From a virus, in the IMG/VR virus record IMGVR_UViG_3300017788_000149, positions 1 through 25,875 of that record: a DNA stretch of 25,875 nt; one strand, 5' to 3'. The notes beneath the pieces are model-generated. The model made no database searches. It worked only from the letters and a program-made list of their open reading frames with translations, and was not told the DNA's origin. How positions within the stretch are numbered: position 1 is the first letter of the stretch; each line of letters opens with the position of its first letter. The translations under genes were made by a program, and so were the position numbers. Positions 60 through 20,500 of the stretch are shown piece by piece.

Positions 60-63
60 CAAG

Positions 64-108: not shown

Positions 109-133
109 TCACATCAACCAAACGACCCGAACG

Positions 134-382
134 ATGAACGGCTACGCCAACTACGAAACCTGGAACGCTGCCCTCTGGATTGGCAACGATGAGTTTCTCT
201 ACAACACCGCCAAAGCGTGTGTGACCTACTGTGCCGATTGGGAGACCCCTTGGGAGAAGTTCGTTCGCTGTATGGTGGATGGCATGATCGGCCGCTTCCT
301 AGGTGCCACTGGTGACGGTGTGGCATGGAACGATCCTGCTATCGATGCCGACGAGATGAACCAGATGATGGCCGATCTCTGA
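134..382 (+). CDS. Small NYETWN-family protein (DUF7249-like)
   Basis: This is an 82-residue acidic protein beginning MNGYANYETWNAALWIGNDE. The NYETWN..LWI.ND signature near the N-terminus is, from memory, typical of a small protein family frequent in phages and named DUF7249 in some databases; its function is unknown. The rest is rich in Trp, Asp and Met with no membrane segment or metal-binding cluster. The ATG follows an untranslated leader with no clear Shine-Dalgarno. The leader resembles that of the gene at 657. The gene lies between two copies of the hairpin plus TAGACTAA element, so it looks like a self-contained transcription unit, probably early or host-takeover related (inference from context only). 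Confidence 0.8.
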   Translation: MNGYANYETWNAALWIGNDEFLYNTAKACVTYCADWETPWEKFVRCMVDGMIGRFLGATGDGVAWNDPAIDADEMNQMMADL

Positions 383-384
383 AC

Positions 385-430
385 TGGCACAAGGGGTCAC
401 CACAGACCCCACCCTGACCCTGTAGACTAA
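385..430 (+). promoter_or_regulatory. Intergenic hairpin plus TAGACTAA element, copy 2
   Basis: It begins with the same 12 bases as copy 1, TGGCACAAGGGG (385-396). The stem is GGGGTC (393-398) with GACCCC (405-410) around a 6-base loop; the two inner base pairs differ from copy 1 on both sides, so pairing is kept. TGACCCTGTAGACTAA (415-430) matches copy 1 at 15 of 16 bases. It starts two bases after the stop of the upstream gene. Confidence 0.6.
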
Positions 431-449
431 CAGCATGAACAAAACCAAG

Positions 450-611
450 ATGACCCACGAACAACTCCTCGCCAAGGTGATGGCAGACTACACCGCCAAG
501 GTGATCAGAGAGGAGCGCCAGCGTCAGGCAATCCGGGACGCCGTGGCAAACGGGACCTATCAGGCACCCGAGGGTCAATTCGGGACCTGGCACATCAGCG
601 ACCGTGACTGA
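450..611 (+). CDS. Small hypothetical protein (53 aa)
   Basis: A 53-residue, charged, probably helical protein beginning MTHEQLLAKVMADYTAKVIR, with an Arg/Gln/Glu-rich middle and a C-terminus ending GTWHISDRD. No family is recognised. A longer start at 435 would add MNKTK, but that ATG falls inside a stretch (CATGAACAAAAC) that aligns with the untranslated leader of the gene at 134 (CATCAACCAAAC) and lies only four bases after the TAGACTAA box. The start at 450 gives a 19-base leader, closer to the 24-25 bases seen at the two sister genes. GC-rich codon use matches its neighbours. The stop at 609-611 overlaps the hairpin of element copy 3. Confidence 0.6.
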   Translation: MTHEQLLAKVMADYTAKVIREERQRQAIRDAVANGTYQAPEGQFGTWHISDRD

Positions 612-632
612 GGCGGGATGCCTCTAGACTAA
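610..632 (+). promoter_or_regulatory. Intergenic hairpin plus TAGACTAA element, copy 3 (shorter)
   Basis: A 5-bp stem, GAGGC (610-614) with GCCTC (620-624) around GGGAT, directly joins TAGACTAA (625-632). It shares CCTCTAGACTAA with copy 1 but lacks the TGGCACAAGGGG lead. The leader that follows holds CAAACGACC (641-649), also present after copy 1. The stem overlaps the stop codon of the upstream gene. Confidence 0.5.
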
Positions 633-656
633 CCACAGATCAAACGACCTGACCCC

Positions 657-842
657 ATGCCCGGATTTGCCCCCTGCTCTGACCTTGCCACCCGCCAGAT
701 CAAATGGATTGGCCGCGGCGATCAAATCAAGAACGACTGCCGCCCTGGTCAGTATATCGCCTGGGGCATCTCTGCTGTCAGCATCGCCGCCCAGTATGCT
801 GACGCCTACGCTGATGAAGTGACCGCCCCCACCTTCGGTTGA
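657..842 (+). CDS. Small hypothetical protein (61 aa)
   Basis: A 61-residue protein beginning MPGFAPCSDLATRQIKWIGR. It has two cysteines (7 and 28), a basic middle (about 13-29) and an Ala/Tyr-rich helical C-terminal half with several acidic residues (about 33-55). The hydrophobicity is too broken up for a membrane helix. No family is recognised. The ATG lies 24 bases after the TAGACTAA box of element copy 3, without a clear Shine-Dalgarno. The next gene starts two bases after its stop, so the two are probably translated from one message. Codon use is GC-rich like the other genes of this block. Confidence 0.6.
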   Translation: MPGFAPCSDLATRQIKWIGRGDQIKNDCRPGQYIAWGISAVSIAAQYADAYADEVTAPTFG

Positions 843-844
843 TC

Positions 845-1018
845 ATGACAGACAAGCAACTTAAGCGCCTCGCCCTGGCCAACGAATGGACGCTAGCTCG
901 CAGGGGCAAGCATGAGACATGGCGACGGGGACAGGCAGAGCAGATCATCATCCCATACCGCCCGAACGAACACACCGCCCGCCTGATCGCCAAGAGGATC
1001 ACAGCGGCGGCAGTCTGA
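845..1018 (+). CDS. HicA-like small protein (possible mRNA-interferase fold)
   Basis: A 57-residue basic protein, MTDKQLKRLALANEWTLARR followed by GKH (21-23), then an IIIPYRP strand (34-40) and a C-terminal helix ending RLIAKRI. HicA-family proteins have a helix, a 'GW.h.R..GSH' turn with a catalytic His, a beta-hairpin ending in a 'hhhP.H' strand, and a last helix. Here the turn is EWTLARRGKH, with the His kept and Ser replaced by Lys. The strand has P-Y-R-P rather than P-x-H. No HicB-like antitoxin is seen beside it, so it may be an orphan or a repurposed RNA-binding protein. It follows the previous stop by two bases and is followed by a strong hairpin. The assignment rests on pattern only. 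Confidence 0.55.
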   Translation: MTDKQLKRLALANEWTLARRGKHETWRRGQAEQIIIPYRPNEHTARLIAKRITAAAV

Positions 1019-1029
1019 GATCCTACCAC

Positions 1030-1054
1030 GCCCCCGCCATCGGGGGCAGTTTGA
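1030..1054 (+). terminator. Probable transcription terminator
   Basis: A perfect 7-bp stem, GCCCCCG (1030-1036) with CGGGGGC (1041-1047) around CCAT, is followed by AGTTTGA, a weak T-rich tail. It lies 12 bases after the stop of the last small GC-rich gene and before the shift to AT-rich late genes, so it probably ends the accessory-gene transcript. Confidence 0.6.
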
Positions 1055-1077
1055 CAGTTATTGTATGCCGTTATCGT
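1051..1077 (+). promoter_or_regulatory. Weak sigma70-type promoter candidate
   Basis: A consensus -35 TTGACA (1051-1056) overlaps the terminator tail. The best -10 is TATCGT (1072-1077), giving a short 15-base spacer; other spacings give poorer hexamers. It could supply host-polymerase transcription toward the genes at 1212 onward, but only the -35 is good. Confidence 0.25.
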
Positions 1078-1144
1078 TATACCGTGGCGGCCGAGCGGGT
1101 CCCATATCGTACCTCCCCTAACCTACAAAAGTATCCAGACGACC

Positions 1145-1152
1145 GATAAATA
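1145..1152 (+). promoter_or_regulatory. T4-type late promoter motif (GATAAATA)
   Basis: GATAAATA matches the cyanophage version (NATAAATA) of the T4 late promoter box TATAAATA, which is read by host polymerase carrying phage gp55-type sigma. It lies 59 bases before the ATG at 1212, at the point where base composition falls from GC-rich to AT-rich and the virion genes begin. The position fits a late promoter for the whole 1212-2851 gene group. Confidence 0.6.
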
Positions 1153-2880: not shown

Positions 2881-3273
2881 ATGCCCGAATTTCAGACGTT
2901 CAAGGATTTGAGCGTTACTTTTAAGAAGCATCCAGTTACTGGTGATCTTGTCACAGTAAAGGATAAGGCTGCGATTACACAATCGATCGTCAATTTGCTT
3001 CTTACAAATAAGGGTGAGAGATTATTCCAACCAGAAATTGGTTCCGGAATTTACAATACATTATTTGAACCATTAGATTATGGTACTGCCGGTATTATAC
3101 GATCTGCTGTAATTGACGTTCTTGAGCGTTATGAACCAAGAATTGCTGTGAGTAAAGTAATCGTTTTACCAGATTTTGATACAAATGGTTATTCAGTCGA
3201 AGTAACTTACGTAATTCGTGGTAGAGAAGACACACCAGTAGCAGTCGAATTCTTCTTAGAGCGTACTCGATAA
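2881..3273 (+). CDS. 25: Baseplate wedge subunit gp25 (GPW/gp25 family)
   Basis: A 130-residue protein beginning MPEFQTFKDLSVTFKKHPVT, the usual length for T4 gp25. It shows the family's order of features: an N-terminal strand region with the 'HPVTGDL' loop, a helix (AAITQSIVNLLLTNKGERLF), the 'PEIGSGIYNTLFEP' stretch, and the signature EPR motif (YEPRI, about 84-88) followed by the C-terminal beta-sheet. In contractile tails gp25 joins the wedge (gp6-gp7) to the sheath and starts sheath assembly. It shares its last base with the start of gp6 (TAATG), so the two are probably translationally coupled, as expected for partners. Confidence 0.95.
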   Translation: MPEFQTFKDLSVTFKKHPVTGDLVTVKDKAAITQSIVNLLLTNKGERLFQPEIGSGIYNTLFEPLDYGTAGIIRSAVIDVLERYEPRIAVSKVIVLPDFDTNGYSVEVTYVIRGREDTPVAVEFFLERTR

Positions 3274-5069
3274 TGCCTTACACTCAATTAGCTAATCTAG
3301 ATTTTACGGACATTAAGAATGCTCTGAAAGATTATCTTAGAGCACAGTCCGATTTTACTGATTATGATTTTGAGGGTTCGGCATTATCGAACCTACTCGA
3401 CGTACTTGCCTACAATACCTATTACACGGCGTTCAACACCAACATGGTGGTGAATGAACTGTTCATCGATTCTGCCACCTTGAGGGACAACGTAGTGGCG
3501 ATTGCGAAGCAATTAGGGTACAGACCAAAGAGTGCAACTGCACCAACTGCTTACGTTTCATTTACTGTCACATATACTAACCCAACAACAGATACACAGT
3601 TAATTCTGAAGAAAGGAACTGGATTTGTTGCTTCATATGATAATGTTCTTTATCAGTATGTCGTATTAGATGATGCGAAGGCACAAGTATCCAACAACAC
3701 GGCTACCTTTACAAATGTTCCTGTGAGAGAAGGAACTCAACTCACTAATACATTTACAGTTAATACTGCATTAGCATCCCAAAAGTTTATTCTCGATAAC
3801 TCAAATATCGATACAAATACAATCCGAGTTAAAGTATTTCCTTCTGGAGGTTCTTTCTCTGAACCATACTTGGTTTCTGATAACATTCTTGGAGTAGATG
3901 GCAATTCAAAGATCTTCTTCTTGAATGAAATTGAAGATGAAAGATATGAAATCATTTTTGGCGATGGAGTTCTTGGTAAAAAATTAGAAAATAATACTGT
4001 TGTTGAAGTAACTTATCTGGTAACTTCTGGACCAGCATCAAATGGCGTGAGAACATTTGTTTTCTCGGGTGTTCTAGAAAATCAGGATGGAGCAACTCCT
4101 GGTGGATTTACAGTTACTATTAATTCCACTCTTGCTTCATCTGGCGGAGAAGAAATTGAATCGACTAAAAAAATTAAGTTTAATGCTCCAAAGTCATATG
4201 GTACTCAAGATCGTGCCGTAACTTCACAAGATTATTCTGCAATTGTTCGCAACATTTATCCATCAACGAGTGATGTGATTATTTTTGGTGGAGAAGATCA
4301 AGTTCCTCCTCAATATGGCAAAGTCTTTATTGTATTGAAGCCAAGAGATGCAGCATACCTAACTTCAATCACAAAGAACGAAATTGTTGCACAATTGAAG
4401 AGATACGTTGTTGCTTCTGTAGAACCTGTACTTGTTGACCCATCAATTCTCTATGTTGAGATTGATAGTAAGATTTATTATAACAGTCAGATCACAGATC
4501 AAACTCCGGCACAAATTCGGGATAAAGTAATTGGCGCATTACAGACATATATCGAAACATCTGATACAGAGAAATTCAACGGAAAGTTTAGACATAGTAA
4601 AACTGTAGGTGTAATTGATGACGCAGATAAAAGCATCAATTCGAATTTAACTTCTGTAATCATGAGGAAAGACTTCTATCCTCAGTTGAATTCTACGTTC
4701 TATTATGAGATCTGTTTCCAGAATTCTTTTGATGAAGATTGTGATGATCCAGTACTATCATCAACCGGTTTTAGAGTTACTGAGTACCCCAATTTTGATG
4801 TCTATCTTGAAGATAGGGGGGGCAAAATTGTCCTATATAGACTAGACGCTATAACTGGTGAAAAGATTGTCCTAGATAGGGAAGTTGGCGATATTGATTA
4901 TGTAAAAGGCGAGTTAAAAATGTATGATTTAACTATCATCAAAGGAAGCTTTTTTGATAACAGAATTTCAGTTAGAGTAAAACCACTGTCTAATGATATC
5001 AAGGCGGTCCGAGAGGTTTATCTTGACGTTGATATAGCAAATTCCACGTTCGTTGCGTACAAAGAGTAA
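3273..5069 (+). CDS. 6: Baseplate wedge subunit gp6 (baseplate J-like)
   Basis: A 598-residue protein beginning MPYTQLANLDFTDIKNALKD. The N-terminal region aligns by eye with T4 gp6: the FEGSALSNLLDVLAYNTYY and NMVVNELFIDSATLRDNVV stretches (about 34-75) are hallmarks. A middle beta-rich region carries the FGDGVLG motif of baseplate J-like proteins (about 229-235). The C-terminal half includes the PRDAAYLT segment and a mixed domain. Length is close to T4 gp6 (about 660). gp6 dimers form the inner ring of the baseplate and clamp the wedges with gp25 and gp7. A GC-rich patch lies at about 3395-3530, and a run of seven G at 4816-4822 is unusual in this AT-rich gene. Confidence 0.95.
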   Translation: MPYTQLANLDFTDIKNALKDYLRAQSDFTDYDFEGSALSNLLDVLAYNTYYTAFNTNMVVNELFIDSATLRDNVVAIAKQLGYRPKSATAPTAYVSFTVTYTNPTTDTQLILKKGTGFVASYDNVLYQYVVLDDAKAQVSNNTATFTNVPVREGTQLTNTFTVNTALASQKFILDNSNIDTNTIRVKVFPSGGSFSEPYLVSDNILGVDGNSKIFFLNEIEDERYEIIFGDGVLGKKLENNTVVEVTYLVTSGPASNGVRTFVFSGVLENQDGATPGGFTVTINSTLASSGGEEIESTKKIKFNAPKSYGTQDRAVTSQDYSAIVRNIYPSTSDVIIFGGEDQVPPQYGKVFIVLKPRDAAYLTSITKNEIVAQLKRYVVASVEPVLVDPSILYVEIDSKIYYNSQITDQTPAQIRDKVIGALQTYIETSDTEKFNGKFRHSKTVGVIDDADKSINSNLTSVIMRKDFYPQLNSTFYYEICFQNSFDEDCDDPVLSSTGFRVTEYPNFDVYLEDRGGKIVLYRLDAITGEKIVLDREVGDIDYVKGELKMYDLTIIKGSFFDNRISVRVKPLSNDIKAVREVYLDVDIANSTFVAYKE

Positions 5070-5073
5070 GTAG

Positions 5074-8000
5074 ATGGCAGTAAAGACCAAAAGAATTTCT
5101 ACTCTTATTGAGTCACAACTTCCAGAGTTCATTTCGTCGGAATACGAACTTTTTGGGAAGTTTGTAGAAAAGTATTACGAATCTTTAGAAGTACAAGGTG
5201 GAACGCTCGATATCATCAGTAACGTCCAAAAATATTTGGATATTGATTTTTATGAGAAGAACCTACTGAAGCAAAACGATATTCTTGTTTCTAGTATTTC
5301 TTCTTCAGAAACAACTATTTCACTAATTGACGCAGGTTCATTTCCAGAAAAGAATGGATATGTAAGAATTGGTAGTGAAATCATTTTTTATGCGACACGA
5401 AATGGTAATCAGTTGCTAGATTGCTCTAGAGGTGTAAGTGGAAACACAACTCTTGGAGATCTTTATAACTCTTCAGATTTTCAAAGCACAGAAGCAGTAT
5501 CGCATGTTTCTGGTGAAATTGTTTATAATGTGAGTAATTTGTTCTTGTATGCTTTTGTCAAGAACTTTGAGACACAATATCTTGGATCTTTCCCAGAAAA
5601 GTATCTAAGAGGTGAAGTTGATAAAAGAACTCTCATTAAAAATATTCAGAAATTTTATAAAGCAAAAGGAACTGATAGCTCTATAAAATTCATTTTTAAC
5701 ACGATTGTATCCAGAGATGTTAATAACAAACCATCTGTATATAATCCAAGGGATTTCACCTACAAGGCATCGGAAGCAGATTGGATCAATATCTATGCCC
5801 TAAAGGTTAAAGTAGTATCCGGCAACCCAAAAACGTTAATTGGAAAACAGATTATTCAGTCTCCTACAGATGAATATGGATATGCTTCTGCTACTGTAGA
5901 TAATGTTTTTGCTGCAGGGACGTTTGATGGGGAACAGATTTGGAATATTGTTCTTGCTCCAGAAACAGTTAACGGACTGTTCTCGATTTCCACTAAAACA
6001 CGCCTCGAAAAAGACTTACAGGCATCTAGTGGATCAGGCAATAGAATTGATGTGTTTTCTACTATTGGGTGGGAAGCAACTGGTGATGTTTTGATTGGCG
6101 AAGAAAGAATTTCATTCATCGATAAAAATATCACTCAGTTTATAATCGATGAAAGAGGAGAAATTCCTGTACTTCATTCAGAAGGTTCAACTGTATACAA
6201 ACCAGTTATCATTCAAGGTTCTGGCGTATCTTTATTAACTCTTGGTGTCGTTTATAACCTATCTCCTGCAGATACACATCCGTATGCTTCAGTTGGAGAT
6301 CAAATTCAAATCTCACAACCAGGATTTGAGACTGCAGATCCAAAAATTGTTAGAACTGGCACAAACCAAGTAAGATGGATTTTGGGAGATGGAGATCCTG
6401 TATTCTCTCCAACAAATACTACCGTTTCCACTTTATTAAACGAAGTATCTACTGATGTTTCTGCTATTTTTGAAGACGATCAATACTACTACGTTGCGAG
6501 TTCTAGTTATCCATCATATAAAATTTTGGATGGATCTGTAGTAACTCAAGAAGCAAAAGATCAAAAGATACTTCGTATTATCCGAAAGGAAGCAACCAAG
6601 ACTACAGAAGTTTATAAAACTCCAAAAAGAGATGTTGGTATTCTATTAAATGGAACACCAATCTTTGGCTTTAGAGATGAAGAAAGTATTCGTTTTGGTC
6701 TCTTAGAAGAAATTGCTATTGATAATCAAGGAACCGGATATGCAAAACCACCTTTTGTTCTTCTTGATGGTGTTCCAAACCAAGCAAGAGCAGTTCTATC
6801 AGGTCAAGTCGTCGAAAGAATTATAGTTGACACAAACACAGTTTTTCCAAGAACTCCAGAAGTAACAATTACATCCGGAAGAGGAGCATCAGTTAGAGCT
6901 GTTGTAACTGGTGGAAAAGTTACAAGTTTAGTTATCGACAATCCTGGTGAATTTTACTCTTCGCCACCAATTGTAAGAATTAGAGATAATGCTGGCAGAG
7001 GAAGATTTGCTGATTATACTGCCACCGTTAATACTGATGGAAGAATAACTGGGTTCGTAAAACGAGACGAAGGAAATTTTTACGATCAGAATACAGTAAT
7101 TGTAGATATTATTCCAGTAGGTCAAGGTGCAAGTGGAACACCATATTTGAAAGAATGGAACAAGAATAGATTTGTTAAACTATCCAGTACATTAGATACA
7201 GAATATGGATACTTGTTTGAGAATTATAACCCAGTACTTAAATATGGATATGGTCATGTAGGAAACCCAAAGGCACTTAGGGTTGCTTTAAATGATAACT
7301 TAAACGGAGCTGGAACAGAACCGTCAACCAAAACTCACTCTCCGATTATTGGATTTGCATATGACGGCAATCCAATCTATGGTCCTTTTGGTTATCAAGA
7401 TCCTTTAAATCAACAGTCATCTATTGTTAGAATGACATCTAGTTATTCGTTGAATAACAATCGTCCAAAAGGACCATCAACTAGAACATATCCTCTAGGA
7501 ACTTTTGTAAACGATTATCGTTATGTTCACAAAAGTGGAACTCTTGATCAAAATAATGGAAGATTTTGCGTAACTCCAGATTATCCAAATGGAACTTATG
7601 CTTACTTCTTGACTATCGATAGTAATCAGGTCCCACAGTTTCCATATTTTATTGGAGAGAATTTTTACTCTCTTCCAGTTGATAGTAACTATAATTCCGA
7701 TATCAATCAAAATGATATTCCAAAGAAATCTAAGAGACTATTTTCTGATGGAATGCCGGAGAATGGCGAAGGACTAATCGCTCAAATTGCTGAAGTAAAA
7801 TCTGGCGTTGTTGATGGCGTAACTGTAGTAAGTTCATCTAATAATTTTTCGGTTAATTCAAAAGTTTATTTCGATAATTCTAGAACAGAAGGTAAGGATA
7901 CTGAAGTTATTATATCTTCAGTAAATGGCAAACCAGTAAATTACTTACAAAGCAAAGAAAATAAAGTTGTTCAATTAACTACAATTCAGAGTGCTTACTT

Positions 8001-11000
8001 ATTTGCTAATGATACATTAAGACAACCTGCTTCTGGTGCATATGGAGAAATCGTAGGAACTGTTGCAAACGATAATGTAATTGTATTGAAAAACGTTTCC
8101 GGTACTTTCAACACTACCGGTACCTTTTCTGCTGATATTAAGACGTTTTCAATACTAATTGATCAAAATAGTAGCTACACTAAGGGAGCAATTCTTTCAT
8201 TAACTGATGGTATAAATCCAGCAATTGCTACAGGCGAAATACTAGAAGGTACATCAAGTCAGAATATAGTAAAAATTAAAGTTTTAACAGGAACTTGGAT
8301 AGTTGATCAAGATTACTTCATACAATCAAGTAATTTATTCAATACTTCCGGATCCAGAATTATCAGACTTACATCTCTAAGTGATAATTTAGAACCATTT
8401 GATGTAAATCAAAATGTTGCTTTGATTGAGACAACACAAGAACATGGATTGGGTATTGATGATGAAGTCAATATTGAGGTATTTCCAAATGATGCGACCA
8501 AGACAAAGACATATTACTTGAGAAAGAGACTGTATCAAACAGTAAAATTTGTAAGTCCTGAATATACTTCAAATATCAATTATACCGGAATAGGTAGATT
8601 TGAAATTCTAAATGGCGGATCTGATTATACTCCAGGAACATATAATAACATCCCACTAACTGGTGGATCAGGTACAGGAGCAACTGCTAGTATTGTAGTT
8701 TCTTCTGCTGGTGTAGTTTCTTCAATTACCATCCAAAATGGCGGATCTTCTTATAAAAAGGCAGATTATCTAAGTGTAGACGATGAGGAGCTAGTAAGAT
8801 CACTAGGATCTTTAGGAAATTCCAGATTAACCATTTATGTTGATCATGTTGGGTTTGCTGCAGGATCTACTTCTTTGATCGTCGATAGCACTATTGGTGT
8901 TTCTAATGGAGATCTTTTAAAAGTTGGTGGTGAAGTAGTTCAAGTATCTTCGATCTTAAACAATAAACTTACTGTAGTAAGGGCAAGAGAAGGAACACAA
9001 AATATAGATCATTACGATGGTCAAGAAGTTGCACTATACAAACCAAAATATAATTTTGCCAACAACTATCAAATTTCTTCTTCTAGTTTTTCTGGATTTA
9101 TCAAGTCATATAATCCAGATACACAAGAAGCTGTAATTGTATTTGGATATGCTACAGAAAAAACAAATGCTGAAAGTGTTAGAATAAGTACTAGTTTCTT
9201 TGATAGCAGCACTCCAAGTAAGTTAGTTTCTGTCGAATTTGCAGATGAAGTTGATTACAAGTTTGAATTCTCTGAAGATAATACAAATTTTGTTTCAAAT
9301 CCAAGTATCAACATCCAAGAATATTACAAATATAAATTTGATACTTCCCACTCTTCTTTAACTGGCACTTATTTTGATTTAAGTCCAAGCAAAAACTATA
9401 ATATTGTTACAGAAGAAAAGACGGCAACAATAATTTTACCAGGAAATCCAGGATCTTTCACAGATGTCAAGTTTGGATTTGGACCTAGATTATCAGCAAA
9501 TACTTATAGTCAAAAGAAGCAAACACAATTTTCAAACTTCTACTACTTTGATAAGAATGGTATTGTATCCTCGGATGAAGCATACTTTAAAATTATTTCA
9601 GATCCACTTCAAGGAACTAAAAAGATTACATATGTAACTCCCACAAGATTTGTTTATCAGTTGAACTCCGTTCCTCTGTGGGATGGTTCTGGATCAATAT
9701 CCTATACAACCACAGGACAGTTTGCTGTAGGATCAATTCACTCATTTAAAGTTATCAATTCCGGTTTAAATTATAAGAAGTCTCCAATTGTTCTTGGTTG
9801 TGATCCAAATTCTGCATTCAAAGCAAAAGCAACAGTATTGTTTGATCCAGCAACAAAAACAATTGCTGGCGTTAGAATAGACGAAGAAGGATTGAATTAT
9901 CAAAATCCAAAAATTGTTGTAGTTGATAGCGATGGAAGTGGTGTAGATTTTGCACTAGTTGCCAGAAATGGAAAGATCTTTTCAATTACCGTAAAAAATC
10001 CAGGAAGAGGATACACATATGCTCCAGAAATTGAAATTATTGAAGGAAATGTTGAAGCATATATCGATAGTAATTCAATTGGTGTTCCTCAAAGTATTTC
10101 AATTATTCAAAATGGCGGTGCATTCCATTTAGATAAAACTGTATCTTCAAGTTTTACTTCTAAGTATGTCTTTTCTCTTTACAATTTCTCTGGTCAGTAT
10201 CAAAAAGGCGAAACTGTAATTCAGGAAATTAATGGAGTAGAAGTTGCTAGAGGAACTGTTTCTGAGTGGAGACCAGGATCTAACTTACTAAAGGTAGAAA
10301 ATATTACCGGTATTTTCAGAAAAGATTATACTGTTAAATCAATTAGTAACAATTCTGTTGGAACTATCAAGTCAGTTTTTGTAACTGGACTAATTGCAGA
10401 TATTACAAGTTTTTATAATAATCTTGGTTATTATAAGTCAGATAGAGGAAAACTTGGTGTTGCAAATCAAAGAATAACTGATAGTGATTTCTATCAAGAT
10501 TATTCATATGTCGTAAAATCTAAAACTCCAATTGACCAATGGAGAGAACTGATTAAATCAACGACGCACCCAGCTGGATTTAAACTATTCGGACAGGTTG
10601 ATGTTGAGGCTAGTGGTTCTACGACGATACCACAACAAACAGCAAACAGCAGTCATTTTTCAATTATTCAACTTTGGGACCCAGCAAAAAATATAGTAAC
10701 GATTGAAAATACTAGAAGAACTGTAACTCAAACTATTCAGAAAGTAGAAAGTCAGAGAGTACGTAGAGGTTTTGGATCTGCATCTCCATCTGAGTTTAAT
10801 TTTAGTGAGTATCGCGCTTTTGAAGTATCTTTAACTCAACCATTTAATGGTTATTATGATAGTGATGGTAGGTTGCAGGGAAGAACTGTATTTCAGATAA
10901 GGGATGATAATGGTATTCCATTTAGTCCAATTAATGCGAAGAGTTTGATTATTACTTTAGATGGAATTTTACAAGAACCAGAAGTAGCATATACAGTTCA

Positions 11001-14000
11001 GAATGATACGATTATTTTCTCTGCACCACCTCTTGGACCAGGAACAGTAAGAACTGGTAACGATTTAAATGATCTCACTCCTTATAATGGTGTCACTTTC
11101 TATGGTAAATATTTCTCGTTTAAAAACAACGAGTACAACAATAGATACCTAAGAAAAATTAGAAACATCTTCCAGAGAAATGGAAGATGGTTAGATGCTG
11201 CTAATCAAATTGAAAGAAACCGCACCTTTATTGTCGAAGAAGCAGTTGGTTATGGAAAAAACAAATATCCATCTCTAGATTGGAGTACTAAACTCGACGA
11301 CTATCAAGAAGATATTGGATTTATCTTAGATGCGTATCAACACGACCTAAGATTTGGTGGAAATGTGAAGACTATTGATTATGTAAACATATTCAGAAAT
11401 AATAGCGAGTATGATTACATCACAAAAAATAAAACTAGTTCGCTTGATATTTTTAGATATGCTACCAATCTAGCGACACTATCAGTTAGAAATTGGGATA
11501 TTGTAGAAAATAATGTTGTTTACAATTCTGGATCATCTACAGTTACTGTTGCTGATACTAATAGAATTGCGATTGGAATGTATATTAGTTGCGGCAGAGC
11601 TTTTCCAGCAAATACTAGAGTAACTGCTATTAATAGCGCAACTCAGATAACAGTATCAAATAATGCGCTAACATCTTCTGTATCGGACCAAGCAACTTTC
11701 TATCTAAGTGGAATTAACACAGGAACGTTTTATGATGCGTCTAATTTGATTTTATCAAACAAAGCATTTCTGCAAGAAGAGATTAGTGAATATATCTATG
11801 ATAATTATTCACTTCCTCCTACAGATAAACAAAAGTGTAAGAGAGATCTTGGGTACCTAATCGATGCTGTAATCTATCATCTAAGATTTGGTGGCAATAG
11901 AAAAGTAGTAGAATTTGCGAGATCATACTATACAAATTCTGGATACCCATATGGTGAAGAATTAACTTATATCAATAGAACTCCACAAGAAACTCTAGCT
12001 GCAATTGACGCATGGGAAACTTTAGGATTACTCATGATTGCTGCGATGAGAAATCAGTTGACTGCTGGAGCATATACATCAATATCGCCAGTAATTGATA
12101 GTTCAATCTTAGTAGATCCTGTCTCTCCAGTATGCCAAGAAGTTGCCGCTAGCATTAATACTATGATTGATATCGTTAAGGATATCATAGAAAACGGTGC
12201 TGGAAACGTAGAAATCACAGAGATTAATCTTAATAAGTCTGGATACTGGTCGAATACTTTTACATATTCAAACTATAACTTGATAGATGATCCTCTTCTT
12301 ACTGCTCAAGAATGTAATGATGTTGCTTCGTCTTTAAATTCTCTTTATTTAAACGTCAAAGATATCTTAGATAAAAAACCAGTATCTAGAGCATTACCAG
12401 ATTATGTTGATGGAGAAAATAAAGTATTCGATCTTTACTGGGAAAATGGCGATGAAGTAATTACTGATGAAGATGAAAATCTATTCCTCACCATTAATGC
12501 AGTACTTCAAAGACCAAAATATACAGAAGAATATCCAAGATTTGATGCTTATTATATCAATAGAACTGTAATTCCAAACCAGTTAGTTTTTGATGTTGCT
12601 CCTATTTGGGATCAAGATTTTGGCGCAAAAAGTATTGGTGAGCCAACTGCTGTAGAAAAAGTTGTTGGTGTTGGTGTTGGAAACTACAAGAGACTTACTA
12701 TCGATTATAACTTGGTCGATAATGTAAAGTCTGGTCCTTTCTTGATCTTAGATGTCGAGAACTATACGGTTCAATCAATCGAAGAACCAGATTTCTTATA
12801 CGTATTCCTTGATGGCGTACTTCAAAGACAAGGTTATTCTTATAGTGTATCTGGTCCAAATATTTTCTTTAATGTTCCAATATTAAAGGAAATGAAGATC
12901 GACATGAGATATCTTTATGGAAAGGATATTGGTCAGGTTCTCAATATCTACGATTTTAATCCAGACACATATTATGCAAAATCTCGTGTAACACTAGAAG
13001 TATCTTCCGGATTATCTACATTTGTTAATTATGGTTGGATGGGAAATAAAATTGGTTCTCCAATACATGCGTATCAACTCAATCTAAATGGAACATATAG
13101 AATGATTGGTGAGATATCAAATGTCTACGTGAATAGCAATACTATGGAATTTGATGTATTTGGAAGTAAATATCAAATTGATCCTAATGATGATGTCATT
13201 TTTGCTGTTAAAGGATTTTATAATATCAACACAGCGGTAGAAATTACAAATTCTACTGTTATCTTTGAAAAAGACGAAGATAATCGTCTATTACTATCAG
13301 ATTTAAATCAGATTTGGTCTGGTACCATTTTAGGAAAAACATACAAAAAACCATTTACTTTCCTTTCGAACAGCGATTTAATTAGACTTGATGGAGAAGA
13401 TACTTTCAGAAAAATTAAAAAACTTCCTGGAATAACAACAAGTAAAGAAGGAAGAAACAATCAACAAGTTTCTAATTCTTTATATGGTATTGTTGATATT
13501 GAAACTTATAATGGTGTTACCAGAGGGGAAGGTCTCAGTATTATTGCAAAAATTGAAAACGGTAAAGTTGTAGACCTAGAGTGGAACCAAAGAAGCTATG
13601 ATCCTTTAACACAACCAACAGCATATCAATACTACATTCCACCAGTATTAAATTTCATTTCTCTTGATGGAAATGGCGGTGGAGCTAGGGCAAATGTTCT
13701 TGTAAGTAAAGGTCAAGTCATTAGTGTTGATCTGATTGACGGTGGATCTGGATACACTAAGGCACCAAAGGTGGTTGTCTCTAGAGGATACGATATTTTA
13801 ACCGAAAGAGATATTGGTGTTTCTCTCATTAATATCGGTATCAATCCCCTTATTGACAGTAGTGGTATTACAGCATTTTCTTCTATTGATGTTCTTGGCA
13901 ATCAAGTATCTGGTGTTAATACATTTACTTCGATTTTCTTCGAAAGCCCAATAAGTTCTGATAGAAAAATTACTGCCATCATTCAACTGGTTGAAAATAC

Positions 14001-15606
14001 TGGAGAAAATTTAAGCAGGGATCACATCGAACTTCTTGGAATAGTAAATCCAAATAGAGAAGAAATTGAAGTAATTGACGTATTCTATAATGCTACACAG
14101 TTTATTAGTGTAATATCTGGAAGAGTTGCCGATATTATTTCTACATCTATTGTAACAACGAATAGACAGATTACAAGTACTGTTGAAAATCTAATTCCTA
14201 ATGATGCTCTCACAAATATTAATTACTATGCTACTGGTGCTTATCTTGATGTTGATCTAGGAATACTTGATAAAATTGTTTATGTTGCGGATACCAGTAA
14301 GTTTAAGACTAACGGTTATCTCTTAATTGGGGATGAAATTGTAAGATATTACAGAAAGTTAACAGATAGATTCCTCAAAGTAGAGAGAGGTCAATTAAGC
14401 ACAATTGCTAAGGCATGGGTAGCTGGGACTTTCTTACGTCAACTTCCAGATCCAATATCTACTGTATTTGGTGGCGTTTCTATTGTTGAATCTCAATCTC
14501 AACTTGTTACGGTACAGGGTGGTTTGGGGACTGCTAATCAGGCAATAACCTCATCACAAATACAGAGTGTAACTCCATCAACATCAATTACATCAACTCT
14601 GAACTTTATAGAAATTGGAATTTTACCAGCAGTAGCTGTAACTTCAATTTCAAATGTAACTGCCAAAACATTTACAATTGTTGAGACACCAGCAGATTTA
14701 GTACAATCAGTGATTGTATCGCATTCTGCTTCATCTGTATCTGGTGTACTACAACATGTTACTGCTGTAGTCGATGTCAAAAAAGATGTCTTTATAGAAA
14801 CACAAGTACATCCAACTGTAAGTATTCAATCAGTAGCTAAAGTTACTAGTATTGTTCTGCCAATTGTTGCTTCTGCTGTTGATATAATTTCTGTATTCCA
14901 ACTTTCTTCAGCACCAACAACTATAAAAACAACAGTTGAATCGATTCAATTTAATTCAAATATTCGTAAAGAATCATTAGAAGTTCTATTGATTCCTCCT
15001 CCATCTGGAGTTGTTGATAGATACACAGAAATTGCGTTCATTTCAGATCCAATTCAGACAAGACTAAATGGATTTGTAGATCTTATTGATATTGGTGGGG
15101 TGTATTCAGTTACATTGAGAGATGGAATTTCCACTATTAATATAAGAAACTCAGTATTTGGATTATCTGATCAATATGTTGGCAACTATACACCAACAAA
15201 TGCTGGACATAGAATATCGCACTTCTCTGGAATTTTTGATGATGGATCTTCTGCTGTTTCTGGATTAACTATTCAAGAACTTGATACATATTATCCATCA
15301 TTAACCTTACAAGATTTTACAGAAAGAGCAAATTCAAGTTATACAATTTCTGGAGATTATTTCAATCTTTTACCACCGTCAATTCAAAATCCAGTTACAG
15401 TTTCTCAAAATTCTGGAACAATTAATTCTACTATATCTGTACAAAAGACCACATACTTCCCAACTAGTGGATACTTATTCACTGGTAATGGTGGTGTAGT
15501 TCAATATACAGGCAAAACTTCAACTACATTTACTGGTTGTTCTGTTATTAGAGGTTCTAATTCTATAAGTGTAGGTACAGAAATCATACCATTCCAAATA
15601 ACCTAA
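5074..15606 (+). CDS. 7: Giant gp7-like baseplate wedge protein with YHYH domain (VrlC-type)
   Basis: A 3510-residue protein. Residues 1-300 match the C-terminal part of T4 gp7 by eye: a helical segment (LPEFISSEYELFGKFVEKYY), FYKAKG..SSIKFIF (194-208; T4 FYSTKG..ASYKFLF) and LIGKQII (255-261; T4 LVGQTIY). The matching TPIDQW...THPAGF (T4 SSRW...VHPVGF) appears only at ~1815-1836, so about 1450 residues intervene. These include a YHYH domain (758-861) and beta modules. Two DLRFGGN helical repeats lie at ~2076 and ~2254, and a Val/Ser/Thr-rich section at ~3140-3300. Five 'IG-E' modules recur along the protein. T4 gp7's large N-terminal part is absent. Known cyanophage relatives are called VrlC. 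It lies between gp6 and gp8 as gp7 does in T4; the start is four bases after gp6 with AAGAG upstream. Confidence 0.85.
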   Translation: MAVKTKRISTLIESQLPEFISSEYELFGKFVEKYYESLEVQGGTLDIISNVQKYLDIDFYEKNLLKQNDILVSSISSSETTISLIDAGSFPEKNGYVRIGSEIIFYATRNGNQLLDCSRGVSGNTTLGDLYNSSDFQSTEAVSHVSGEIVYNVSNLFLYAFVKNFETQYLGSFPEKYLRGEVDKRTLIKNIQKFYKAKGTDSSIKFIFNTIVSRDVNNKPSVYNPRDFTYKASEADWINIYALKVKVVSGNPKTLIGKQIIQSPTDEYGYASATVDNVFAAGTFDGEQIWNIVLAPETVNGLFSISTKTRLEKDLQASSGSGNRIDVFSTIGWEATGDVLIGEERISFIDKNITQFIIDERGEIPVLHSEGSTVYKPVIIQGSGVSLLTLGVVYNLSPADTHPYASVGDQIQISQPGFETADPKIVRTGTNQVRWILGDGDPVFSPTNTTVSTLLNEVSTDVSAIFEDDQYYYVASSSYPSYKILDGSVVTQEAKDQKILRIIRKEATKTTEVYKTPKRDVGILLNGTPIFGFRDEESIRFGLLEEIAIDNQGTGYAKPPFVLLDGVPNQARAVLSGQVVERIIVDTNTVFPRTPEVTITSGRGASVRAVVTGGKVTSLVIDNPGEFYSSPPIVRIRDNAGRGRFADYTATVNTDGRITGFVKRDEGNFYDQNTVIVDIIPVGQGASGTPYLKEWNKNRFVKLSSTLDTEYGYLFENYNPVLKYGYGHVGNPKALRVALNDNLNGAGTEPSTKTHSPIIGFAYDGNPIYGPFGYQDPLNQQSSIVRMTSSYSLNNNRPKGPSTRTYPLGTFVNDYRYVHKSGTLDQNNGRFCVTPDYPNGTYAYFLTIDSNQVPQFPYFIGENFYSLPVDSNYNSDINQNDIPKKSKRLFSDGMPENGEGLIAQIAEVKSGVVDGVTVVSSSNNFSVNSKVYFDNSRTEGKDTEVIISSVNGKPVNYLQSKENKVVQLTTIQSAYLFANDTLRQPASGAYGEIVGTVANDNVIVLKNVSGTFNTTGTFSADIKTFSILIDQNSSYTKGAILSLTDGINPAIATGEILEGTSSQNIVKIKVLTGTWIVDQDYFIQSSNLFNTSGSRIIRLTSLSDNLEPFDVNQNVALIETTQEHGLGIDDEVNIEVFPNDATKTKTYYLRKRLYQTVKFVSPEYTSNINYTGIGRFEILNGGSDYTPGTYNNIPLTGGSGTGATASIVVSSAGVVSSITIQNGGSSYKKADYLSVDDEELVRSLGSLGNSRLTIYVDHVGFAAGSTSLIVDSTIGVSNGDLLKVGGEVVQVSSILNNKLTVVRAREGTQNIDHYDGQEVALYKPKYNFANNYQISSSSFSGFIKSYNPDTQEAVIVFGYATEKTNAESVRISTSFFDSSTPSKLVSVEFADEVDYKFEFSEDNTNFVSNPSINIQEYYKYKFDTSHSSLTGTYFDLSPSKNYNIVTEEKTATIILPGNPGSFTDVKFGFGPRLSANTYSQKKQTQFSNFYYFDKNGIVSSDEAYFKIISDPLQGTKKITYVTPTRFVYQLNSVPLWDGSGSISYTTTGQFAVGSIHSFKVINSGLNYKKSPIVLGCDPNSAFKAKATVLFDPATKTIAGVRIDEEGLNYQNPKIVVVDSDGSGVDFALVARNGKIFSITVKNPGRGYTYAPEIEIIEGNVEAYIDSNSIGVPQSISIIQNGGAFHLDKTVSSSFTSKYVFSLYNFSGQYQKGETVIQEINGVEVARGTVSEWRPGSNLLKVENITGIFRKDYTVKSISNNSVGTIKSVFVTGLIADITSFYNNLGYYKSDRGKLGVANQRITDSDFYQDYSYVVKSKTPIDQWRELIKSTTHPAGFKLFGQVDVEASGSTTIPQQTANSSHFSIIQLWDPAKNIVTIENTRRTVTQTIQKVESQRVRRGFGSASPSEFNFSEYRAFEVSLTQPFNGYYDSDGRLQGRTVFQIRDDNGIPFSPINAKSLIITLDGILQEPEVAYTVQNDTIIFSAPPLGPGTVRTGNDLNDLTPYNGVTFYGKYFSFKNNEYNNRYLRKIRNIFQRNGRWLDAANQIERNRTFIVEEAVGYGKNKYPSLDWSTKLDDYQEDIGFILDAYQHDLRFGGNVKTIDYVNIFRNNSEYDYITKNKTSSLDIFRYATNLATLSVRNWDIVENNVVYNSGSSTVTVADTNRIAIGMYISCGRAFPANTRVTAINSATQITVSNNALTSSVSDQATFYLSGINTGTFYDASNLILSNKAFLQEEISEYIYDNYSLPPTDKQKCKRDLGYLIDAVIYHLRFGGNRKVVEFARSYYTNSGYPYGEELTYINRTPQETLAAIDAWETLGLLMIAAMRNQLTAGAYTSISPVIDSSILVDPVSPVCQEVAASINTMIDIVKDIIENGAGNVEITEINLNKSGYWSNTFTYSNYNLIDDPLLTAQECNDVASSLNSLYLNVKDILDKKPVSRALPDYVDGENKVFDLYWENGDEVITDEDENLFLTINAVLQRPKYTEEYPRFDAYYINRTVIPNQLVFDVAPIWDQDFGAKSIGEPTAVEKVVGVGVGNYKRLTIDYNLVDNVKSGPFLILDVENYTVQSIEEPDFLYVFLDGVLQRQGYSYSVSGPNIFFNVPILKEMKIDMRYLYGKDIGQVLNIYDFNPDTYYAKSRVTLEVSSGLSTFVNYGWMGNKIGSPIHAYQLNLNGTYRMIGEISNVYVNSNTMEFDVFGSKYQIDPNDDVIFAVKGFYNINTAVEITNSTVIFEKDEDNRLLLSDLNQIWSGTILGKTYKKPFTFLSNSDLIRLDGEDTFRKIKKLPGITTSKEGRNNQQVSNSLYGIVDIETYNGVTRGEGLSIIAKIENGKVVDLEWNQRSYDPLTQPTAYQYYIPPVLNFISLDGNGGGARANVLVSKGQVISVDLIDGGSGYTKAPKVVVSRGYDILTERDIGVSLINIGINPLIDSSGITAFSSIDVLGNQVSGVNTFTSIFFESPISSDRKITAIIQLVENTGENLSRDHIELLGIVNPNREEIEVIDVFYNATQFISVISGRVADIISTSIVTTNRQITSTVENLIPNDALTNINYYATGAYLDVDLGILDKIVYVADTSKFKTNGYLLIGDEIVRYYRKLTDRFLKVERGQLSTIAKAWVAGTFLRQLPDPISTVFGGVSIVESQSQLVTVQGGLGTANQAITSSQIQSVTPSTSITSTLNFIEIGILPAVAVTSISNVTAKTFTIVETPADLVQSVIVSHSASSVSGVLQHVTAVVDVKKDVFIETQVHPTVSIQSVAKVTSIVLPIVASAVDIISVFQLSSAPTTIKTTVESIQFNSNIRKESLEVLLIPPPSGVVDRYTEIAFISDPIQTRLNGFVDLIDIGGVYSVTLRDGISTINIRNSVFGLSDQYVGNYTPTNAGHRISHFSGIFDDGSSAVSGLTIQELDTYYPSLTLQDFTERANSSYTISGDYFNLLPPSIQNPVTVSQNSGTINSTISVQKTTYFPTSGYLFTGNGGVVQYTGKTSTTFTGCSVIRGSNSISVGTEIIPFQIT

Positions 15607-15661: not shown

Positions 15662-17473
15662 ATGGCTGCTATTATCTCTGATAAATTTAGAATTTTTAAT
15701 GCGAAACAATTTCTAGAATCGCTAACTGAAGGTGCTACGGATACGGGTTCCGAGCGTACTAGGATGTATTTCTTTGTGGGACGCCCACAACCATGGAGAG
15801 CGTACTTAGAAATCTATTCTAAGTCTTCAACTGCTTTTACTGTAGGTAATGAAGTTTTTGTTGGAACATATGGTTCTACTGCTTTCCGTGCCACTATTGC
15901 AGCAGTTTACGATACCGCTCTATTTCTAACCGACGTTTTTGGAAGCAACGGTGTTAATTCCGTTCCTTCTTCTGGTAGCACCCTTCTAGAAACAGCAGAT
16001 GGTGGTTCTACAACAACTAGCGCAACCGCTAAGTCGGGAGTTTATCGTTATGCTACCGAAGACGTTCCCCCTATGCCTCTTGATAATCAGGCAGAAAAGA
16101 ATGCAATCTATGATGAACTAATCGCTGCCAAGAGAATTACTGATTCATTTGCTAGAGAAGTAATTCGTCGCTACAATTGGGATCTAGTTGCTAATCCCAA
16201 GTTCGACATGTGGAAACCAGATTATTCAGCAACTCCTGGTGGTGGTGGTCAAATTGGTAAGACAACTGCTACTGGTGCTACTTCTATTGCTGATGCTAAG
16301 TTCTATGTGATGAACTCTGCTTATGAAGTTTTCAAGTGTCTCTATAACGGAGAGAACCCTTCAAACGCTAGCGGTCAAAACGCAACCGAAGAACCTATTA
16401 CTACCGGTGCTAACTATACTTCAGCAACTGGACTATACGAAGAAACAACTGGAGCTGGTTACATCTGGAAGTACATGTATACCATGCCAACTGATGATGT
16501 TCTGAGATTCCTTTCGTCAGACTTCATGCCTATCGTTCTTCCATCAAACTCCTCACGTCAGGCAGTTACAGCAGCTGCTGTAGATGGAGCAATTGATGTT
16601 GTTTTAATCGAAGATGCTGGAACAGCTCTTCCTGCTTCTCAGACACTATACACCCCAATTCTTGGTGATGGAACTGGTGGTAAAGTTAAGTTTGTAACTA
16701 ATGGTAGCGGTGTAATTACTTCTGCTGAAATTGAAGCAAGAGGTTCTGGTTACACTTACGCAAATATTAGACTTGTAAATGGTAACGTTTATTCGAACGT
16801 TGGTTTAACTACTTCGGTTTCAGTTGGAGCATCTGCAAGAGGTGCTATTGAAGCTATTCTACCACCTCTTGGTGGTCATGGCAGCGACCATGAAACAGAA
16901 TTAAATGCTAAGAGAGTCATGACGAATATTCGTCTAACTTATGCTGAAGGTTCTGGAGACTTCCCAGTAGATAACGATTTCCGTAGAATTGGTATTCTAA
17001 AAGATCCATATAATTATGGAACTACGACTTTCTCAACAGCAGATACTCTTTCTGGTCTAAGAGCAGTTAAAATTACTGGTGCTACTGCTGACTATATTGC
17101 TGATGAAAGAATTCAGCAAACAGTAACGGGTGGTACTGCTTATGGTACTGTTGTTTCATGGACACTCGATTCTGGTTCAACGACTGCTGGTGTTCTTAAG
17201 TATATTCAGACAAACGATGCCCATACAGATGCAGGTGTTGTCAGAGCGTTTGAAAGCAACGGATCTAATGCAATTACTGGTCAACTTTCAAGTGCCTCTG
17301 GAACTGTGAATACTTCATACAGTTCGTCTCTACTTGGTTCCACATTTAGTAGTGGATTAGCAAACCCAGAAATTAGAAATAATTCGGGTGAAGTAATTTA
17401 CGTCGAAAACCGTCGTCTAATTACTCGTGCTCCGGACCAAATTGAAGATATCAAACTTGTTATTGAGTTCTGA
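15662..17473 (+). CDS. 8: Baseplate wedge subunit gp8
   Basis: A 603-residue protein beginning MAAIISDKFRIFNAKQFLES. T4 gp8 features appear in order: FFVGRPQPW near residue 40 (T4 ITFGRSEPW), REVIRRYNWD (~162-171), KCLYNGENPS (~224-233), GYIWKYMYTMP (~265-275), FRRIGILKDP (~440-449) and the C-terminus SGEVIYVENRRLITRAPDQI (T4 SGEMIYMENRPPIIMAMDQT). It is far longer than T4 gp8 (334). The extra length includes a GSGY beta module at about 336-378 and another insertion at about 453-570. gp8 dimers bind gp7 and gp10 at the edge of the wedge. A late promoter lies upstream; the Shine-Dalgarno is weak (CGGAA). Confidence 0.93.
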   Translation: MAAIISDKFRIFNAKQFLESLTEGATDTGSERTRMYFFVGRPQPWRAYLEIYSKSSTAFTVGNEVFVGTYGSTAFRATIAAVYDTALFLTDVFGSNGVNSVPSSGSTLLETADGGSTTTSATAKSGVYRYATEDVPPMPLDNQAEKNAIYDELIAAKRITDSFAREVIRRYNWDLVANPKFDMWKPDYSATPGGGGQIGKTTATGATSIADAKFYVMNSAYEVFKCLYNGENPSNASGQNATEEPITTGANYTSATGLYEETTGAGYIWKYMYTMPTDDVLRFLSSDFMPIVLPSNSSRQAVTAAAVDGAIDVVLIEDAGTALPASQTLYTPILGDGTGGKVKFVTNGSGVITSAEIEARGSGYTYANIRLVNGNVYSNVGLTTSVSVGASARGAIEAILPPLGGHGSDHETELNAKRVMTNIRLTYAEGSGDFPVDNDFRRIGILKDPYNYGTTTFSTADTLSGLRAVKITGATADYIADERIQQTVTGGTAYGTVVSWTLDSGSTTAGVLKYIQTNDAHTDAGVVRAFESNGSNAITGQLSSASGTVNTSYSSSLLGSTFSSGLANPEIRNNSGEVIYVENRRLITRAPDQIEDIKLVIEF

Positions 17474-17531: not shown

Positions 17532-20500
17532 ATGCCACAGAAGACCAACCTTAACGTAAATCCTTACTACGAGGACTTTGATGCGAAGAAGAACTTCTAT
17601 AAGATTCTCTTTCGTCCAGGTTACTCCATTCAAGGCAGGGAATTAACCCAGTTACAGTCCACTCTCCAAAATCAAATTGAAAGCTTTGGAAGATATGCTT
17701 TCAAACAAGGGGAGATGGTTATCCCAGGTGAGGTTGGTCTCAATACAAAATTAGATTATGTAAAACTATCTTCAGTTTCCGAAGTAGCTGTTAGCGAAGG
17801 AAATGATATAGTTTATAAGAAGTATGATATTTCCCAACTGGTCGGCCAACAACTAGTTGGGTTAACTTCTGGTGTTGTAGGAACAATTTTAGCAACAAAG
17901 GAAGCAACAGAAAATTCTGCCGACACGATATTTGTAAACTACTTGACTAGTGGTAATTCAAATACAGAACCAACTTTTAGGCAGGGAGAAACTCTAGAAG
18001 TTATTGATGGTGTTAATACTCCGCTTTTAGTTGTTGGAACTGATGGTAGTGTTCTTCCAACAAGTATTAATGTTACAAATCCAGATACCGATGAAGTAAC
18101 TTCAATTGAAAGCCCTGCTATGGGTTATGCTTCTGCTGTGAAAGTGGAAGAAGGAATTTATTTTTTAAACGGTTACTTTGTTCGTAATGATGCCGAATTA
18201 TTAGTAATTGAAGAATACTACGACAAACCATCAGCAAAAGTTGGTTTTGTCATTAATGAACAAATTGTAACTCCCGAAGAAGATGATTCGTTGTATGATA
18301 ATGCAATTGGTTCTTCAAATTATACTGCTCCAGGAGCACACAGACTAAAAATCACAATTTCTCTAAAAGAGTTTGATTTAAATGCTATTACAGATAAAAA
18401 CTTCATTCAACTCCTAACCGTTTCAAGAGGAGTTATACAAAAGAAGGTATCCGTAACTAATTACAATCTTTTAGAAGAAACTCTTGCTAGAAGAACTTTC
18501 GACGAAAGTGGTGATTATGTTGTAGACAACTTTTCGATTGATATTCGAGAATATGCCCAGAAAGATGGCAATAGAGGAATATACTCTATTGATGAATTTG
18601 GGTTATACAACAATTTGACAACTGGCGAAGCATCACGAAAGATGATTGCTAGTATTGGTCCTGGAAAAGCATACATTAAAGGATATGAGATTGTCAACAA
18701 AGAAACAAAATACTTAGAAATCAATAAGGCAAGAGAAAGCCTAAGCAGCGATAATGTAACATTAAAAACAAAAGGTCTTCCGACTTTTAGTATCACTAAT
18801 GTTTATGGTAGCGTACCTCTCAACAAAGAAGGTTCTGATTTAACTGCATATCCTGATGTATTTTTATATTCATCTTTTAATGATGGATCTATTGGATTAA
18901 ACAATACCGAATTGCCATCGGATCATAGACAAACTCTCAACAGAAGAGGATTGATCTTTAATTCAAATGATGCGATTAAAACAATTACAATTCAGGTAAG
19001 TAGCACAACTACTCTGATCGGATCAATTACAGATGGAACATTTCAAAATCTAATTGGAACTCTATACTTTATCAAATCAAGAAGTGATGTTGGATCTCCT
19101 ACTGCGGTTGGAAGAATCAATTCAATATCGTATGCCACAGTAAACAAACCACTAATTAATCCATCAGTATCGGTTCAATTTTTGGAGCTTACTGTAACTG
19201 GAGCAAAGGATGAATTAGAACTTCTTCTCCTCGAATATGATAATGGCGATTCTGAATTTAAAAGAAGATTATTCCTTTCAGAAGCAGACGCTCAAATAGA
19301 TGATAATGAATTTGGATTTGTTGTAGATTATCGCCAAACAATTACTCCCGTTATTGGAAAGGTAAAGCCAAGTAATTTCTATCTACAAAAAAGAGGTCCA
19401 GGATTTAATTCAGATTCTGATATTATCTTATCAAAGGGTCGTCTTTCTAGGGGAGCAGCTGCTTATAATTCAATTTTTGGATTGTCTTATTTCGATCCTC
19501 AGTTTTTTACTAAGATAACTCTAGAATCGACTATAACAGGCACAGACGCATTTGACGAAGGCAAGTATATCTTTGGTCTTTCAAGTGGCGCATACGGCGT
19601 TGTAGAGGGCGCTCCAAATGGTGTTTATACCACAAGCAATCTTCTATTTGTAAAAACTCTATCCGGAAGATTTATCCCAGGTGAAACTATTAGAGATGAA
19701 TCCGGGAACACTATTAAAATTGCCAAAGAGAATACTATCTCTCACTTTATTATTCAGAACAGAGGTTTAGGATATTCTACAGGATCTACAATTATTATTA
19801 ATGGACTTGAGTTTGATTCTTCAAAAGTGCAGTTGTCTCTAACTGGCGATGGAAAAGTTTACAAGGCTATCATCAACGACAGAAATGCCCTTAATACAGA
19901 ATATTCACAACCACCTGCAGTAAGTGTTAAAAATCCAGATGGTGCTACACCTCCAAATGCTGGAGCATCAGTTGTTCCTGTTTTATTCAGAGATGCTGTA
20001 GTTACATACACCCCGCAGAATGTGAAATCAATTGGTTGTAGATATGGTTCCGGAAATGCGAATTCGTTTAGTGCAGATATTCTAATTGATGACCAGGACT
20101 TTTCCGAAATTAAGTCTGTCACAGACTTCACATTCTTTGGATCACAAGGATATGATTTCATCGAATCGACAAGTTTTAGTGCTGACGCAAGTTCTCTTCT
20201 AGTACAAGGAGATATGGTGCAGTTCTCTGACGTAGACAATAATTTAGTCAGAGCAACAGTTCAATATGCCACAAAACCATCTGGTTCTTCAAAGACAAGA
20301 ATTTATCTAGATACTGTCCTTCCAGGTGACATTAGTAACACAAGTATTGTACGCTTGAGACCAAAATTACAAAATCCAAATTCAGGAACTTTATTATTTC
20401 CAACTGGAAGTAAGCAGGTAGAAAAAATTTCTGCTGGTGGGGATGACACTAAGATTAAGTATTATTTCAGAAGAGATTTTGTTACTACAGCATCTGCTAG

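Follow-up and report, generated by a model that had tools for sequence, protein, structure and literature searches.

A probable gp7 baseplate wedge protein with its core split by large beta-rich insertions in a marine cyanobacterial virus

The stretch of DNA analysed here, referred to as the window, comprises 25,875 bases of a single IMG/VR virus record (IMGVR_UViG_3300017788_000149) and originates from a marine cyanobacterial virus. It encodes a series of baseplate proteins on the plus strand, including an exceptionally long open reading frame (ORF) between the genes for gp6 and gp8:

2881..3273, + strand: gp25, baseplate wedge protein and sheath initiator (phrog_261, E 7e-54)
3273..5069, + strand: gp6, baseplate wedge subunit and partner of gp7 (Pfam Gp6-like_1st, E 2e-18; phrog_219, E 7e-207)
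5074..15606, + strand: probable gp7 homologue with its core split by insertions (3,510 aa; intact, open for 3,510 codons)
15662..17473, + strand: gp8, baseplate wedge subunit (Pfam Phage-Gp8, E 3e-11; phrog_438, E 4e-176)
17532..25628, + strand: VrlC-like (DUF4815) structural protein (PF16075, E 1e-45)

The order gp25, gp6, ORF 5074-15606, gp8 places the ORF in the slot of T4 gene 7 (T4 order 6-7-8). Its closest named relatives are found in the Synechococcus phages S-WAM2, which has been placed in the Kyanoviridae, and S-B43. The syntenic counterparts of the 17532..25628 gene in S-WAM2, S-PM2, and S-CAM7 are labelled virulence-associated protein. The GC content is 58% in positions 1-1000, versus 32-42% elsewhere in the window.

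In the window protein a KGT motif at residue 198 and a THPAGF motif at residue 1831 lie 1,634 residues apart, while the corresponding motifs of T4 gp7 (P0001, 1,032 aa), KGI at 738 and HPVGF at 884, are separated by 146 residues. The motif-to-motif excess over T4 gp7 is approximately 1,490 residues, and the net inserted length, obtained by alignment of the flanks to compact relatives, approximately 1,450. These measurements agree with a sequence-only reading of the locus, which had put the THPAGF block about 1640 residues from the N-terminal block, had given the T4 gap as roughly 150, and had estimated some 1450 inserted residues, now assigned to an insertion spanning residues 306 to 1775 approximately. 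The same reading had counted about 1700 residues past THPAGF, for which 1,674 were found, and had considered the large N-terminal region of T4 gp7 to be missing. The latter was borne out, as no segment of the window protein matched T4 residues 1-640 in sliding-profile comparisons (best probability 3.7%).

The identity of the two blocks was investigated with profiles built for 300-aa segments sliding along the window-clade proteins, which were compared with a gp7 profile from the Straboviridae, the T4 family. Only two window segments exceeded 4% probability, 177-217 matching T4 703-757 (E 2e-4) and 1810-1840 matching T4 862-892 (E 5e-3), and they are collinear. BLASTP of the window protein against T4 gp7 likewise returned collinear matches (176-216 to 702-756 and 1810-1836 to 862-888), each with an E-value of about 0.03. 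A first-block profile built without T4 finds T4 gp7 with an E-value of 8.6e-8 (28 bits, against 10 bits for the best of 1,000 shuffles), and in a search of the PDB with the N-core profile gp7 ranks first (E 2.4e-4). The second block alone scores weakly against T4 gp7 (8 bits, with one shuffle of 1,000 scoring higher), and compact relatives are therefore needed as a bridge. These compact relatives (400-631 aa; Ochrobactrum phage OC and viral contigs) hold both blocks uninterrupted, and their profile aligns continuously with T4 gp7 642-888 (97.8%, E 1.2e-12). In database searches of the whole PDB with this profile, gp7 of Klebsiella phage KP1 came first (residues 648-893, database E-value 5.3e-9) and T4 gp7 second (6.4e-7), with the following match at only 0.44. 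By hhalign, window residues 4-305 and the stretch 1740-1860 match the compact profile with E-values of 6.2e-21 and 8.6e-17, respectively, which are pairwise profile values and not database E-values. A corresponding Pelagibacter comparison was set aside, its alignment being contaminated with further ORFs from those loci. Both blocks can thus be placed in gp7 by profile, as the sequence-only reading had anticipated, and residues 1-305 and approximately 1776-1847, as judged from these alignments, each supply one half of a single gp7 core. Moreover, a weak Pfam Baseplate_wedge match lies at residues 1800-1839 of the window protein. Several searches were negative: the whole window protein searched directly against the PDB gave only chance phycocyanin matches, domain VI (PF21456, T4 920-1012) had no match at the sequence level in Pfam or sliding-profile searches, and HMMER, run with a domain V HMM built from the compact relatives, detected no such domain in the window. 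Domain V was recovered by profile-profile comparison and by fold.

Structure prediction for window residues 1-1150 yielded a model of moderate confidence (pLDDT 65). In VIA-align, KP1 gp7 ranked first (model 234..402 to gp7 761..853, Z 10.4) and T4 gp7 third (760..853, Z 9.8), and both alignments cover domain V with an rmsd of 3.3-3.5 over 87-88 residues. Competing phage tail proteins scored Z 8.5-10.2 and unrelated rows went down to about 6; Foldseek on the 1,150-residue model gave no match under E 0.001, so that gp7 was listed by VIA-align only. The model shuts domain V with residues 380-402, whereas the sequence puts the closing strands just before residue 1790, outside the model. For a 1,016-aa relative of the HTVC008M type, the model was poor (pLDDT 48.6), but gp7 chains were the first and second Foldseek matches (E 3.3e-5 and 1.1e-4) and the sole ones under 0.001. 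Residues 235..749 of this model align with T4 gp7 (5HX2) 756..844, reaching across the insert, and residues 1..758 with T4 638..853; given the pLDDT of 48.6, these matches are supported by parts of the model only. The crossing of the insert speaks in part against the possibility, raised in the sequence-only reading, that the two blocks lie far apart in the fold, at this low pLDDT and with the HPAGF block itself placed in neither model (window 1-1150 and the 1,016-aa relative).

The combined alignments, models, and profile searches yielded the following anatomy of the window protein:

5074..5247, + strand: gp7 core helix-turn-helix, residues 1-58, expected to form a hairpin of the core bundle (alignment to compact relatives; model helices 2-15, 18-23, 25-40)
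5248..5550, + strand: small insertion, residues about 59-159, a beta-domain (missing from compact relatives; model strands 68-115)
5551..5988, + strand: gp7 core continued, residues 160-305, comprising the KGT helices and the greater part of domain V (hhalign to compact relatives, E 6e-21; domain V fold, Z 10.4 and 9.8)
5989..10398, + strand: main insertion, residues about 306-1775 (compact alignment; spacing series)
6838..6984, + strand: GxGY beta-module copy 1, residues 589-637 (HMM, E 8e-13)
7249..7635, + strand: YHYH domain, residues 726-854 (PF14240, E 8.7e-32)
8602..8778, + strand: GxGY beta-module copy 2, residues 1177-1235 (HMM, E 1e-16)
9670..9792, + strand: GxGY beta-module copy 3, weak, residues 1533-1573 (HMM, E 0.009)
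9871..10044, + strand: GxGY beta-module copy 4, residues 1600-1657 (HMM, E 3e-17)
10399..10614, + strand: closing gp7 core block, residues 1776-1847, YQDYSYVV...THPAGFKLFG (hhalign, E 9e-17; collinear with T4 862-892)
10615..15606, + strand: C-terminal extension, residues 1848-3510, which varies among clade members (clade comparison)
13621-13782, + strand: fifth GxGY module, inside the C-terminal extension (HMM)

Window residue 305 corresponds to compact residue 191 and window residue 1776 approximately to compact residue 213, which implies that about 20 residues have been replaced by about 1,470, with insertion edges accurate to some tens of residues. Possibly, residues 306-379 and 403-1775 represent two separate insertions. 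The single insertion implied by the sequence-only reading is in part upheld, in that the core does contain a large split, but at least two insertions (59-159 and approximately 306-1775) plus the C-terminal extension are found. At the site of the 59-159 insertion, Syn19 carries about 600 aa. Nine members of the clade (L073, L075, and L025 among them) have some 235 extra residues at window-equivalent position 215 approximately, just past the KGT region, and this addition marks a third site of insertion within the gp7 core. With insertions at several core sites, the loops of the gp7 core have repeatedly served as acceptors. Within the C-terminal extension, two copies of the motif D.G[FY]..DA...LRFGGN were observed (window 11311-11364 and 11845-11898, residues about 2080-2097 and 2258-2275). 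They recall the phycocyanin alpha helix KC.RD.GY......Y.L..GG, a similarity that is not significant (PDB E 0.15; Pfam E 0.006, below the cut-off).

The wedge protein gp7 of T4 binds two gp6 chains, and an equivalent contact of the window gp7 with the gp6 dimer is predicted from homology. T4 gp7 has been described in contact with gp6, gp8, gp9, and gp10 (PMC3004832). The gp7 proteins of T4 (Straboviridae; 5IV5, 5HX2) and KP1 (9F4A) share with the window ORF the slot between gp6 and gp8, and contain in identical order a helical core, a KGT/KGI motif, domain V, and an HPxG block. T4 gp7 has a 640-residue N-terminal arm, a trait of the full T4-type gp7 (PHROG 964), and is insertion-free, whereas the window protein is armless and begins with the core. 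Relative to T4 gp7, it has about 1,450 additional residues in domain V, a further 100 within its helical part, and a C-terminal extension of 1,660 residues. In T4 the peripheral mass sits on the N-terminus of the core; in the window protein it would hang from loops and the C-terminus. The compact proteins of Ochrobactrum phage OC and of three IMG/VR contigs (L092, L096, and L112; 400-631 aa) have the core, the blocks, and the insertion flanks as in the window, but lack both the main and the 59-159 insertion. The gp7 of Pelagibacter phage HTVC008M (1,016 aa) has its core split in the same region and GxGY modules in the insert; its main insert is smaller (about 430 residues), and its first small insertion is located elsewhere, at about residue 44. 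The homologues of S-WAM2, S-B43, S-PM2, and ACG-2014e/j (PHROG 4406) occupy the same gene slot and have equal spacing where measured; their C-terminal half diverges, and they have been deposited merely as (virion) structural protein. In Vibrio phage XM1, the gp7 orthologue gp17 (242 aa) holds tail spikes by its core-domain loop 80-106 and its C-terminus (PMC10457771); it lacks large inserted domains, and the separate spikes are bound by loops that measure 27 and 42 residues. The A-1(L) wedge has an insertion domain that holds a tail fibre (PMC10966104). For the Kyanoviridae, no experimentally determined baseplate structure was found.

Phage records containing the first block number 463, and those containing the second 399; almost all are from cyanophages, the remainder being a few Pelagibacter, Methylophilales, and other phages. 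Distances between block ends were determined in the 178 ORFs holding both blocks, and form a graded series: 119 residues in T4, 137-161 in the compact proteins, then 220, 284 (pf16), 367-477, 549-586 (HTVC008M type), 1,601-1,866 (window clade), 2,203-2,211 (ACG-2014f, S-CAM9), and 2,757 (Syn19). Most independent contigs of the window clade fall within 1,601-1,733, which rules out an assembly chimera. In a tree of 103 cores, built on few columns and with weak deep forks, fitting the six size classes takes six changes, a single change more than the minimum, and the size class of the window forms one clade (support 99/98). Insertion size classes are thus nearly clade-specific in these alignments. 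The smallest insert, that of the 220 class (L129, L131, and L138), consists of exactly one GxGY beta-module at the insertion site; a compact protein has none, and the main insert of the window protein four, one of them weak. The marine T4-like phages share the split, which affects the same region in graded sizes and is neither unique nor recent. No description of the split gp7 core or of its graded series was found in the literature searched.

Taken together, the ORF very probably encodes gp7, with its core split in domain V by a beta-rich insert and followed by a C-terminal extension. In the proposed arrangement, the chain would exit the core within domain V at about residue 305, run through some 1,450 residues of beta-rich modules, including the GxGY modules and the YHYH domain, and re-enter at about residue 1776 to complete the core before the 1,660-residue C-terminal extension. 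The inserted chain would point outward from the wedge, and together with the C-terminal extension it would perform the peripheral work that in T4 falls to the gp7 arm with its partners, i.e., holding or forming host-contact parts. An outer, host-facing position of the insert, with the periphery hung from loops and the C-terminus, is suggested by analogy with the known systems. Of the sequence-only reading's large new outer structure threaded through a conserved wedge core, the wedge core with a very large insertion is therefore supported by profile, 'outer' we infer, and 'new' does not hold for a split that is general among marine T4-like phages. A broader proposal, that in these phages host-contact modules within gp7 loops took the place of the gp9-gp12 system and of the gp7 arm, with lineages enlarging the structure at fixed loops through GxGY and other modules, is speculative and rather unlikely; if it were true, the wedge protein would bear its own receptor-contact structure.

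The gp7 core could also be combined with an insert that serves purely as scaffold and would thicken or brace the wedge, or hold gp8 and VrlC, host recognition being left to downstream fibres and VrlC. This is a plausible but less likely alternative. In its favour, the main insert is steady in length within the clade (1,601-1,733 in most) and the C-terminal extension varies more, as expected of structural and not of host-facing material. Against it, the insert contains a YHYH domain, listed among host-recognition-linked domains (PMC7029224), and core-loop insertions hold spikes and fibres elsewhere (PMC10457771, PMC10966104). In the literature, gp7 is stated to be lacking in cyano- and pelagimyophages, where VrlC is said to replace it (PMC7029224), and is counted in the non-cyanophage core (PMC3037559). 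That the ORF would consequently be an unrelated structural protein, with VrlC in the role of gp7, is very improbable in view of the profile matches from both sides of the insert, the fold matches, and the gene order, and since Ochrobactrum phage OC has a compact gp7 plus a large gene after gp8. Chance similarity in a long, repetitive, beta-rich protein might account for a second block that alone performs no better against T4 than one of 1,000 shuffles; collinearity, the E-values of 6e-21 and 9e-17 to compact relatives whose own match to gp7 is continuous, and the top fold match, which is gp7, make this extremely improbable, and chance matches were excluded through the bridge of compact relatives. 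A core split by a long insertion also resembles, at first sight, one carrying an intein or another self-removing or mobile element that would leave a compact gp7. This is scarcely credible, as no intein or endonuclease Pfam family was detected in the whole protein or its pieces, the insert consists of beta-modules and a YHYH domain, and it persists across the clade, domains having been added in a graded manner.

The gp7 core is present in marine T4-like phages, contradicting its published absence, and its interruption by the insertion, which hides it, accounts for the reports that gp7 is missing in such viruses. Cyano- and pelagimyophages are abundant ocean viruses and gp7 is a central protein of the T4 wedge, so that the core found here fills a gap. 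Moreover, the series formed by these natural proteins, whose lengths range from 400 to over 5,800 aa, illustrates how a conserved machine part takes up domains. The identification corrects the labels of PHROG 3465 (HTVC008M gp7; head closure Hc2) and PHROG 4406 (window; head and packaging), both of which conflict with gp7. The gp7 identity is not wholly new, since the records of ACG-2014f, S-CAM7, and S-CAM9 already refer to a baseplate wedge initiator or subunit, and PHROG 2885 points likewise. Finally, in the S-SKS1 genome (HQ633071.1; L009 11970-18967), about 7 kb after gp6 are without an annotated gene and give a tblastn match to the gp7 N-core, and the gene is therefore probably absent from the deposited annotation.
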